Assembly (NCBI RefSeq): GCF_029891575.1
Contig: NZ_JARZHF010000003.1
Coordinates: forward strand, 1 to 64,000
Origin: Salipaludibacillus daqingensis
GTDB lineage: Bacteria > Bacillota > Bacilli > Bacillales > Salisediminibacteriaceae
Direction of reading: 5' to 3'
DNA: 64,000 nt
Within the stretch, counting starts at the first letter, position 1; each line of letters starts with the position of its first letter. The notes under the pieces were generated by a model that was given only the letters and a program-made list of their open reading frames with translations, was not told the origin of the DNA and did not search any database. Position numbers and translations under genes: made by a program. Shown piece after piece: positions 16,771 to 59,722 of this stretch.

Positions 16771-17400
16771 GACGTTTTTTATCTCCTCTTAACAAAAACT
16801 GATTTTCACCCAATTTGCTAACATTTGCTGTGATCCTCCTGCCATATAGGACACTAGGGATGATAGGTAGAACGGACTGTCCCGATTATCTCTCTTGCCA
16901 GACACTCAACGCCGAAAAACCTACCCATACGTCATCGTTTCAAGACCAAAAAGGTTGGTAACTGGAGCATCTAAAAGATACTTGTACTTGCTATTAGTTT
17001 GCGTAAATCATTTTTTTGAAAAAAAGAACAAAACTTATTAGAATTATCAAAAGTCGCTATCTTTCTCGCTTACTGCCTTTCATCGTCGACGCTCTCTCCC
17101 TTCGGTCACTATACGCTTCCTTTCCTTCCAAGAGTCATTTTTCCATAAGTTTGGAAAGTAGAATACGGATGAATAGGCAAAACCTGAGATCCCTTGAACG
17201 ACAAATCATTGCCTTCAACCGTTTCATGAATATCGTTCCGATTATCCTTAGTAAAACAATTATCGTGCATCTCCCAAAAGTCAGCAAAATGATCCCTTAA
17301 GGTTTTCATAATCAAACCGCCATGCTTAACCACACACCCACACCTACTATCATCATTACCAATACTTATCCACAACTCAAACATCTGTAGTTTCCTAAAC
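16771..17400. other. gap with a decayed repeat copy (copy 1, minus strand)
   Basis: No healthy gene is present. On the minus strand, directly after the yutM terminator, 17109-17400 reads as FELWISIG...GGLIMKTLRDHF.DFWEMHD...DIHETVE. This parallels the copy near 37 kb (FELWKSFKDS...GGLIKK..HI.SFCELYDRRFP...LYETV) and is clearly related to it. Beyond that (17040-17110), the minus strand carries GAGAGCGTCGACGATGAAAG and GGCAGTAAGCGAG, a module found again at 59186-59250. The product family is not one I recognise. The remaining bases, 16771-17020, show nothing clear. Confidence 0.5.
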
Positions 17401-57046: not shown

Positions 57047-58327
57047 CTATCCGATTTGGGATTTTTGACTATTTTTTTGATTTGTCTTCAATGGTTTTCT
57101 GAACACTAAGAAGAAATATATCGTTCCGACCACATATAAACCTGCGGTAATGGAAAAAACAATCGCATAACCTGAATATGCCCCATGAACCATAACGATC
57201 GTTGTAGATACAGGTCCCATGACTGCCCAACCTAGCTGAAAAACAGCTTGACCAACGGAGTTAGCTAATCCTTTAATGGAATCGTCTACACTTCGCATCA
57301 TGAGTGACATTTGTATCGGGTTCCCAGCATTCATCAATGCTTGCCTAAATAAAAATCCAAACACAGCAAGCCATAGAGTTTCGGTAAATGCCGTAATGAG
57401 TAAAAACGGAATGGATAGTAATTGTAATATTACAACAGCCCTTACTTCCCCAACTTTTCTTACAACTGCTGGGCCAATCATTAATGCGACGGCAGTCATC
57501 GCCTGTCCGGAAGATAGTATAAGTCCAACGAGCGTATGAGACACTTCAAATCTATCAACAAAATATAAATTTAAATATGGTATGACAAGTCCAGAACCAA
57601 ATCCGATGATGATTTGAGCAACCGCAAATAAAAGGATGATCTTAATACCTGTTCGGTGCGTCTTAAATAGTTTTTTGAATGAGCGATCTTGCATCGTTTT
57701 ACTCTCTAACTTCCTTTCTTCACGAATCTTAAGCATTGGGATTAATGCAGAGAAAAAGAAGAGTGCTCCGATGATCAGTGTTACTCGAATGCTCCAAAGG
57801 CCAGATAAACCTATGAAAACTTGAAAAAAGTCACTTAAAGAACCACCTAATGTATTTCCGATGACATTTGCTACCATAATCATAGCAAAATTAAAACTAA
57901 ATAAATGAACTCGTTGTTTCTCCGTTGAGTTTTCTGCTAATAATGGAATAGATGATACTTGAATAAAAGCCATAAACATTCCAGTCATAAATGCCCCTGA
58001 AAGCAAAAGCACATCAAACGACAATGTTGCTCTAAGTAACAAACTTATTGCCGTGAAAACGGCTCCCCACAGTATCACTTTTTTTCGACCGATTCTATCA
58101 CTCAGGATACCTGCTGGTAGAAGGAGGAGTGCAGTTGCTGCCGATTGCATGGCAATGACAGATCCATTCATTTGATCATCATACCCTAACTCACGGATAT
58201 AATAATTATAAATGATCATGAAAATTCCCATCCCAATATGCAGTAATATCGAGCTTATTAAAAATAAACGAACATTTTTATTGTAATGGCGAAATTGTTC
58301 TTTCCAATCACCTAAAATATTTCCCAT
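57047..58327 (-). CDS. major facilitator superfamily transporter
   Basis: A 426-residue protein with twelve hydrophobic helices. The MFS signature between TM2 and TM3 reads GILSDRIGRKKVILWGA. A shorter second-half form is GPAVVRKVGEVRAVVIL. The central cytoplasmic loop is ILMLKIREERKLESKTMQDRSF-like and basic. No drug-efflux or sugar-specific signature stands out; the substrate is unknown. It may share a transcript with the SCP2-like gene. The start ATG follows GGAGAGGG. Confidence 0.88.
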   Translation of the reverse strand: MGNILGDWKEQFRHYNKNVRLFLISSILLHIGMGIFMIIYNYYIRELGYDDQMNGSVIAMQSAATALLLLPAGILSDRIGRKKVILWGAVFTAISLLLRATLSFDVLLLSGAFMTGMFMAFIQVSSIPLLAENSTEKQRVHLFSFNFAMIMVANVIGNTLGGSLSDFFQVFIGLSGLWSIRVTLIIGALFFFSALIPMLKIREERKLESKTMQDRSFKKLFKTHRTGIKIILLFAVAQIIIGFGSGLVIPYLNLYFVDRFEVSHTLVGLILSSGQAMTAVALMIGPAVVRKVGEVRAVVILQLLSIPFLLITAFTETLWLAVFGFLFRQALMNAGNPIQMSLMMRSVDDSIKGLANSVGQAVFQLGWAVMGPVSTTIVMVHGAYSGYAIVFSITAGLYVVGTIYFFLVFRKPLKTNQKNSQKSQIG

Positions 58328-58547
58328 TTCCCTCTCCTTCCCGTATCAGGTAACTTTCTATGAAATATGTATGTCGTTGTAGATATCTTCATTTTTTGTT
58401 CTTTACAGTAACTTCATCGAAACATGAGATCCTTTATATTGTATTGCTCCACTTATTTCGACTCTCTAAATAATAAGCTATCCGAGCGAATTTGAAAAGA
58501 GGAGATTTTTAGAAAGCTCGAATGGTCTTATGGTAATTAATCCAAAA

Positions 58548-58587
58548 TAAAAGTCTGCTTACGTATTTGATCGTAAGCAGACTTTTA
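58548..58587 (-). terminator. terminator of the gene at 58598
   Basis: AAAGTCTGCTTACG pairs with CGTAAGCAGACTTT around 7 bases. On the minus strand TTTATTTT follows. Confidence 0.88.
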
Positions 58588-58597
58588 TAAAGAAATG

Positions 58598-58912
58598 CTA
58601 GCTCCAACCCATATCCGTTTCTTCAACATAGGATTTAGGGTACTTTCGAGGCTCTTGGTAATTATCTTTATAAAACGTTTCATTTTCAAATTCGAACCCT
58701 TCTGACATTTCATATAAATAACCAGGACCTTTTTTCAATATTTGTCCTATCTTCTCAGATTGGTAATAGATAGATGTTTCGTCTTTACTCTCTATCTTCT
58801 TCTCAATTTGATCAGAAATATCGGTACGAGTTTTCGTTTGTTGCCTATCTTTTTTGGAAAAATCGGGGTCGAATTCTTCTCCGACTTCGTTAAAATAATC
58901 TACTCTGTCCAC
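58598..58912 (-). CDS. small charged protein of unknown function
   Basis: A 104-residue hydrophilic protein beginning MDRVDYFNEVGEEFDPDFSK. It is rich in Lys, Asp, Glu and Tyr with no cysteine, membrane helix or signal peptide. The GTG start at 58912 lies 10 bases after AAGGAGG. Its own terminator follows. I do not recognise the family. It lies between the 21-bp repeat array and the MFS gene. Confidence 0.7.
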   Translation of the reverse strand: MDRVDYFNEVGEEFDPDFSKKDRQQTKTRTDISDQIEKKIESKDETSIYYQSEKIGQILKKGPGYLYEMSEGFEFENETFYKDNYQEPRKYPKSYVEETDMGWS

Positions 58913-58977
58913 GGCGAAGATACCTCCTTGTTTATAACTTAGTATGAACAAGGAGGCTTACATTATTCCAGATACCC

Positions 58978-59161
58978 ACCTGCGCTTTCACGATTTCGGT
59001 GGGCTCTCACATGCCCCACATGCGCTTTCAACTCAGGTTGGCGCGCTTTCAAACTACTTTCGCGCGCTCTCATGATACCCACATGCGCTTTCAACTCAGG
59101 TTGGCGCGCTTTCAAACTACTCTCGTGCGCTCTCATGATACCCACCTGCGCTTTCACGATC
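58978..59161. repeat. 21-bp repeat array, GCGCTYTC core in a 63-bp higher-order unit
   Basis: The octamer GCGCTTTC or GCGCTCTC (GGGCTCTC once) starts at 59001, 59022, 59043, 59064, 59085, 59106, 59127 and 59148, exactly 21 bases apart, and once more at 58982. Three successive 21-mers form a 63-base unit; 59022-59084 and 59085-59147 differ at only three positions. In one minus-strand frame it gives a heptapeptide pattern such as ESSLKAR, QPELKAH, VGIMRAR, but there is no ribosome binding site and I do not treat it as a gene. It lies between two terminated genes. Confidence 0.85.
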
Positions 59162-59185
59162 TATCATCAGGTAGCTGCTGAAAGG

Positions 59186-59260
59186 AACTATCTAACTCGC
59201 TTACTGCCTTTCAGCGTCAATGCGCTCTCATCGGGCTCTATACGTATCCTTTACTTATAT
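59186..59260. repeat. module shared with 17040-17115
   Basis: CTCGCTTACTGCCTTTCA followed by GCGTCAATGCGCTCTC, then CTATACG and TCCTTT, occurs here. The same order (CTCGCTTACTGCCTTTCA, CGTCGACGCTCTC, CTATACG, TTCCTTT) occurs near 17058-17120. Here it adjoins the 21-bp array; there it adjoins decayed repeat copy 1. Confidence 0.65.
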
Positions 59261-59285
59261 ACTCCATTCATTCTCAAAACAAAAG

Positions 59286-59324
59286 TAAAAAACTCCCTGG
59301 GTGCCATTAGCACTCAGGGAGTTT
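59286..59324 (-). terminator. terminator of gcvH
   Basis: AAACTCCCTGGGTGC (59290-59304) pairs with GCACTCAGGGAGTTT (59310-59324), one G-T. On the minus strand TTTTTTAC follows. Confidence 0.9.
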
Positions 59325-59338
59325 ATCGTTTCTAAAAA

Positions 59339-59722
59339 TTAGTCTTCTTTCGTCATAGCCTCATAAGCTTCAGCATCCATCAACTTATCGATTTCAGACT
59401 TATCCGATGGCTCTACTACTACCATCCAAGCTTTTTCATACGGAGATTCATTGACGAATTCAGGTGAATCTTCAAGCTCTTCGTTTACTTCCACAACTTT
59501 TCCAGTTATTGGAGCATACAATTCAGAAACTGTCTTAACAGATTCTACGCTACCAAACGGCTCGTCAGCTTCTAGCTCGTCACCAACTTCAGGAAGTTCT
59601 ACGAAGACGATGTCTCCAAGTTCCGCTTGAGCAAAATTTGTAATGCCAATTCGAACTTTTTCACCTTCTACTTTTACCCATTCGTGTTCTTCTGAATACT
59701 TTAAATCTTTTGGTAAGTCCAT
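59339..59722 (-). CDS. gcvH: glycine cleavage system H protein
   Basis: A 127-residue lipoyl carrier that shuttles the aminomethyl group between glycine cleavage proteins P, T and L. The lipoyl Lys63 is in [17 protein letters not shown]. In Bacillus GcvH is also the entry point for lipoate assembly: octanoyl is placed on GcvH, made into lipoyl by LipA (encoded at 29819-30712), then moved to E2 subunits. No gcvP or gcvT lies near. The start follows GGAGGGAC. Place next to yusI as in B. subtilis. Confidence 0.96.

Follow-up and report, generated by a model that had tools for sequence, protein, structure and literature searches.

Tandem repeats of constant length and variable sequence form a class in Bacillus for which no function is known. 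In the excerpts of Subirana and Messeguer (2021; PMC8161180) used here, 4029 tandem repeats were reported from 176 Bacillus genomes, 781 of them with units of 20-21 nt and 1886 with units of 51-53 nt. The repeats were described as non-coding, constant in size and variable in sequence, with a short conserved signal in each species. The length of the 20-21 nt units was equated with two helical turns, and a DNA-polymerising protein or small RNAs were proposed. No comparison of core and spacer rates between loci was found in these excerpts. The 52 nt satellites of B. coagulans were reported to be transcribed (excerpts of PMC8625621). According to the portion of PMC6749651 consulted, dispersed non-coding long-repeat families were found only in Leptospira interrogans and Methanocella conradii.

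The array described here lies in a 64-kb stretch of DNA (the window) and is a member of the published 20-21 nt non-coding Bacillus class. For units of 20-21 nt, the excerpts of PMC8161180 call for at least four repeats with at least 60% of one length within 1 nt; seven of the eight steps between the octamers of our array measure 21 bp. Like the published repeats, the array is non-coding, although one of the six frames gives a weak hint of coding in its comparison with the copy on C2 (P 0.05). It is also species-specific, one of several families in its genome, with relatives on C2, C5 and C17 and a stub on C8, and of 34 genomes searched only its own gave a match. Its short signal, the octamer GCGCTYTC, is shared by two types of array, A and B; another array, at C3:192021, has a different core. 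Unlike the 20-21 nt repeats in those excerpts, the window array has 21-mers that diverge outside the octamer, a plainer unit of 63 bp in 2.3 copies, and one step of 19 bp. The 52 nt satellites of PMC8161180, as excerpted, have a longer unit and often inverted repeats, whereas the window array belongs to the short class; a 52/103-104 nt family is present in its genome as well, with one unit right beside the array. To the published description we add the anatomy of an array, its loci within one genome, the finding that congeners lack it, and the lower rate at which its octamer changes.

STAR elements of Staphylococcus, as described in the section of PMC3532100 consulted, resemble the array in being intergenic direct repeats with a short conserved core, variable spacers and locations that differ between species. 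However, their core is the 14-bp GC-rich T(G/A/T)TGTTG(G/T)GGCCC(C/A) and their spacers measure 40 bp or more; the array has neither this consensus nor this spacing, its GCGCTYTC cores being 11-13 bp apart. The array DNA gave no match in plasmids or phages. Plasmid iterons are direct repeats about two turns apart that are bound by protein on one face of the DNA. The window array shares direct repeats at about two turns, but no replication initiator gene lies beside it and its relatives are dispersed at several chromosomal loci. CRISPR arrays consist of longer repeats separated by unique spacers; here an 8-bp repeat is combined with 13-bp spacers that recur within and between loci, and a reading of the locus made earlier from the letters alone (the sequence-only reading) was right to set CRISPR aside.

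Anatomy and setting of the array

The array occupies positions 58982-59155. Its octamers start on the + strand at 58982, 59001, 59022, 59043, 59064, 59085, 59106, 59127 and 59148; the first step is thus 19 bp and the following seven are 21 bp each. The sequence-only reading had described an exact helical register with nine GCGCTYTC-type octamers, eight of them at exact 21-base spacing. Nine were indeed found; one of them is GGGCTCTC, which deviates from GCGCTYTC. The last eight form the exact 21-bp series, and the register is therefore not exact throughout. The array is real and far above chance: a spaced pair of octamers, with one mismatch allowed, matched 7 times in the window and never in 100 dinucleotide shuffles. 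With both strands of the window counted, exact GCGCTYTC occurs nine times in all, every time within 58982-59229. Eight of these are in the array, and the ninth, at 59222 (GCGCTCTC), lies in the adjoining satellite unit, 74 bp past the last array octamer.

Tandem Repeats Finder reports 63-bp units at 59015-59156 (2.3 copies, 96% matches), so the near-identity of these units was correctly seen. Together with a listing of the units, it divides the array into a left end at 58982..59021, where the octamers at 58982 (GCGCTTTC) and 59001 (GGGCTCTC) and their spacers lie; a first 63-bp unit at 59022..59084 (octamers at 59022, 59043 and 59064); a second at 59085..59147 (octamers at 59085, 59106 and 59127); and a right end at 59148..59169, all on the + strand. 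The right end consists of the last octamer and ACGATCTATCATCA and is found again in the C2 copy (L009), there with an inverted repeat after it. The listing also bears out that the three 21-mers of a 63-bp unit have the octamer in common and little else. Identity to the 21-bp consensus was 0.94 in the conserved block and 0.61 in the rest, by a measure of our own that differs from the similarity score of PMC8161180. The 19-bp step occurs once per element and, at about 1.8 turns, is off register by about one-fifth of a turn. In the window and in L009 this short step comes first; in the related arrays L010 and L011 it closes each block.

The array is intergenic and lies between two genes on the - strand. 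One encodes a DUF2553 protein (58598..58912, -; Pfam PF10830, 7.2e-13), for which we chose from the sequence a GTG start after AAGGAGG, the ORF list having TTG at 58951. The other is gcvH, for the glycine cleavage H protein (59339..59722, -; Pfam PF01597, 1.2e-50). Inspection of the letters at 59292..59322 (-) shows an inverted repeat with a T run after it, likely the intrinsic terminator of gcvH. Between this and the array, adjoining the latter, a search of the genome placed a single unit of the 52/103-104 nt satellite family (59170..59256, +). The genes of the neighbourhood encode an MFS transporter and an ArsC-family protein besides GcvH and the DUF2553 protein. The locus was also searched in seven congeners: a similar ORF that carries the DMGW motif comes after gcvH in each of them, and the array is missing. 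Between the stop codon of gcvH and the first M of the next ORF lie 92 to 300 bp in these congeners, and 426 bp in the window (to the GTG at 58912). The array DNA gave no match at E 0.01 in 33 related genomes.

Related arrays and change in the octamer

Homologous arrays at separate loci make this genome a natural experiment in which octamer and spacers can be compared. The array at C2:391013 (L009) is of type A, like that of the window, and has one block instead of two; these two copies have unit order and ends in common. Type B is represented by C5:271600-271806, with two 103-bp blocks, and by C17:3960, with one. The two-core stub at C8:53546-53578 is of type A and resembles the left end of the window array (94% over 33 bp). 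Unit order is identical among the loci of each type, three consecutive units are recognisable in both A and B, and the octamer is present in both.

Other repeats were also seen in this genome. The different array at C3:192021 (L243, 5985-6241) has a GCGCG(C/T)TTTTC-like core and two alternating spacers, and is flanked by genes for an alcohol dehydrogenase-like protein and an RDD-like membrane protein, both named by eye from translations. The 52/103-104 nt satellite family is dispersed, with 30 matches at E<=1 (the query, 59170-59256 of the window, included). It occurs as single units in the window at 59170-59256 and 17057-17127, and in tandem at C2:335514-335860, C4:398369-398758 and C3:231213-231381. 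An intergenic array of 53-bp units on C8 (L244, 2795-3306) carries the inverted repeat TTGTGACC..GGTCACAAG. Two more intergenic arrays, one on C1 (L246, 8471-8661) and one in a congener (G001; L248, 10850-11192), are built of 51-bp units that contain inverted repeats and are unrelated in sequence.

Homologous units of separate loci were compared by a scripted count of differences at octamer and spacer sites. Between the window and L009, the octamer differed at 1 of 48 sites and the spacers at 13 of 77 (p 0.009); this comparison is biased by the choice of octamer columns, which were picked for likeness among the window units. The least biased pair, L010 and L011, gave 2/40 and 14/63 (p 0.024). 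With both pairs pooled, the counts were 3/88 in the octamer and 27/140 in the spacers (Fisher p 4.4e-4), and use of the second copies of the window or L010 instead gave p 0.0008 to 0.002. In the deepest comparison, that of type A with type B over three units, no octamer site differed (0/24), whereas 15 of 37 spacer sites did (p 1.6e-4). These counts cover few bases, and the units of one locus are not fully independent. The earlier proposal that the core rather than the full unit is constrained is supported by the sequence comparison: the octamer is under tighter constraint than the spacers, and this holds from one locus to another as well. Since the octamer changes several times more slowly than the spacers, we argue that its letters, and not only the repeat length, are under selection; this is our main evidence on the matter. 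Conservation was also uneven along the unit in 43 arrays, with many small p values. We do not count this unevenness as evidence of selection, because the units share ancestry.

Constraint of a different kind would be expected if the array encoded a secreted or structural peptide of xxxLKA(R/H) heptads. Such heptapeptides are read on the - strand, in an open frame at 58963..59157 that we judge not to be a gene; as had been noted earlier, no ribosome binding site is seen, by eye, before its GTG. The window and L011 both have an open LKA frame, and in L009 this frame runs open between stops; L010 has stops in all three purine-strand frames within the stretch translated. Differences fall at third positions of this frame in 9 of 14 cases between the window and L009, 5 of 16 between L010 and L011, and 2 of 15 between types A and B (16/45 in total). 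When substitutions outside the octamer were simulated, the window/L009 value had P 0.05 (units 1-5) and the L010/L011 value P 0.94. One opposite-strand frame of the window/L009 pair does better (P 0.015), as six frames would give, and we read the third-position lean of this pair as chance. Moreover, the 19-bp steps shift the frame, and related genomes have 20-bp arrays, which are unable to keep one. No frame is consistently preserved, and a coding repeat is extremely unlikely, close to refuted by frames, stops, step lengths and substitution phases together.

Arrays in related genomes

Arrays were found both elsewhere in the same genome and in its relatives, but the octamer did not prove to be their common motif. 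A pattern of three CGCTYTC cores occurred in 44 of 299 genomes of the order, and the same pattern read backwards, as a control, in 33 of 299; many 20-21 bp arrays found without use of the octamer have other cores. The octamer was therefore rejected as a class-wide motif. Of the matches to the pattern outside genes, many have cores that recur every 20 or 21 bp and spacers particular to the genome. Among the 30 pattern loci returned, eight were judged to be intergenic 20-21 bp arrays (L185, L186, L187, L194, L195, L201, L202 and L213), and others were coding repeats with steps such as 18, 24, 33, 36 and 39. The flanks of pattern loci contain further arrays with other cores and periods of 20-21, 41-42 and 51-53.

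Array length was then considered independently of the octamer in 80 stretches of 20 kb, taken at preset round-number positions from 28 genomes. Arrays overlapping tRNA genes or runs of N were left out, and neither the coding nor the non-coding group includes two rows flagged 'COD?' (periods 20 and 40). Of 27 non-coding arrays, 21 had periods of 20, 21, 41, 51 or 52, and these came from 8 of the 28 genomes; the remaining six had periods of 15, 62, 70, 74, 82 and 101. Phase concentration at 10.4 bp was 0.81 for the non-coding arrays and 0.14 for 18 coding arrays. No p value is attached to this length rule, since arrays of one genome are not independent. Among Tandem Repeats Finder rows with periods of 17-30, 18 of 25 non-coding rows were at 20-21, compared with 6 of 22 coding rows, and block-shuffled stretches contained no array. 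Gene calls in this survey were long open frames chosen greedily rather than by a gene finder. Some rows near the ends of stretches were put in the wrong group, such as an array of period 15 at L279 that looks coding and was counted as non-coding. Densities in the survey are not to be read as estimates, as some genomes were chosen after several had been seen to be array-rich. At least 80 contigs from other phyla were listed, chosen by a 21-bp pattern and hence no test of the length rule. Taken together, these results support two-turn spacing as a trait that non-coding arrays of related genomes have as a class.

Arrays of the 20-21 class were over-represented between convergent genes (15/40 vs 119/743 array-free gaps, p 0.0017); for the 52 class the count was 4/18 (p 0.51). 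The purine-rich strand of the arrays coincided with the gene strand in 13 of 17 cases, and the corresponding figure for array-free gaps is 71%, so there is no signal above background. The 52 nt arrays of one genome (G010, L299) carry two signals that are listed for B. cellulosilyticus in the excerpts of PMC8161180.

Possible functions and origins

We tentatively favour, as the mechanism that we infer, repeated binding of a putative protein on one face of the DNA. The suggestion that two-turn spacing suits such binding stands as far as the spacing goes, this being typical of the class; binding itself is our proposed explanation. The octamer would be the recognition site of a putative chromosomal DNA-binding protein that would occupy one helix face at two-turn intervals, with cooperative binding from end to end of the array, as Rep proteins bind plasmid iterons. 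The array would then offer a local place between genes for docking or condensing. Unequal exchange or slippage in blocks of 63 bp (window) or 103 bp (C5) would change the copy number, and elements would be copied to new loci. Consistent with protein binding are the slower change of the octamer, the unit order common to separate loci, the share of non-coding arrays that fall in the period class, with their phase concentration, and the lack of a consistently conserved frame. Against it stand the fact that no such protein was found, the absence of the octamer as a class motif, the one 19-bp step per element and a turnover as fast as that of neutral repeats.

The main rival to protein binding is a neutral or selfish minisatellite of constrained length, a possible but on the whole unlikely account. 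In such a case the replication or repair machinery would set the duplication length at about two, four or five turns, and slippage and unequal exchange would spread the array where it is harmless. The empty gcvH locus of the seven congeners and the absence of DNA matches in 33 other genomes are what this account expects, the near-identical 63-bp and 103-bp blocks resemble recent duplications, and the excess of the 20-21 class between convergent genes agrees with it as well. It does not, however, lead one to expect that the octamer should change more slowly from one locus to another. An array that acts as RNA, its transcript binding protein or mRNA through repeated motifs, seems improbable. The excerpts of PMC8161180 and PMC8625621 propose such a role for the 52 nt class, and the latter report transcription of those satellites in B. 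coagulans. The sequence-only reading had allowed for an RNA of this kind, and it finds little support here: folding is somewhat stronger than in shuffles for two related arrays (z -2.1 and -2.5), but the window array does not stand out on either strand (z -1.1) and orientation to neighbouring genes is at background. A known RNA family was sought in 58300-59400 and rejected, with no Rfam match at gathering score there and no sub-threshold row over the array.

Still less probable, and in our view very unlikely, is a non-autonomous mobile element with an incidentally repetitive body. The window and C2 copies have the same unit order and ends and there are several loci in one genome, as would be expected of such an element; yet no target-site duplication was seen, the array is bounded by octamer units and not by terminal inverted repeats, and the searches of plasmids and phages, by which a plasmid origin was likewise rejected, returned nothing. 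If protein binding is the correct reading, the octamer at 21-bp steps could be used as bait for finding the putative protein. A broader version, which we regard as doubtful, is that many Bacillales carry a putative protein that assembles along DNA at a fixed step of two turns and recognises a short word particular to each species. Its chromosomal iterons would then be the arrays, protein and word would change together, and the 52 nt arrays would be docking sites of a five-turn counterpart.

Further arrays were observed in other genomes. In two species of Geomicrobium (L082 and L124), a 21-bp array occupies what seems to be one and the same position between genes; its unit variants differ between the two, a pattern that suggests homogenisation inside the array. 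In another genome (G057), an intergenic array at L288 8692-9057 has units of 74 bp, near seven helical turns.
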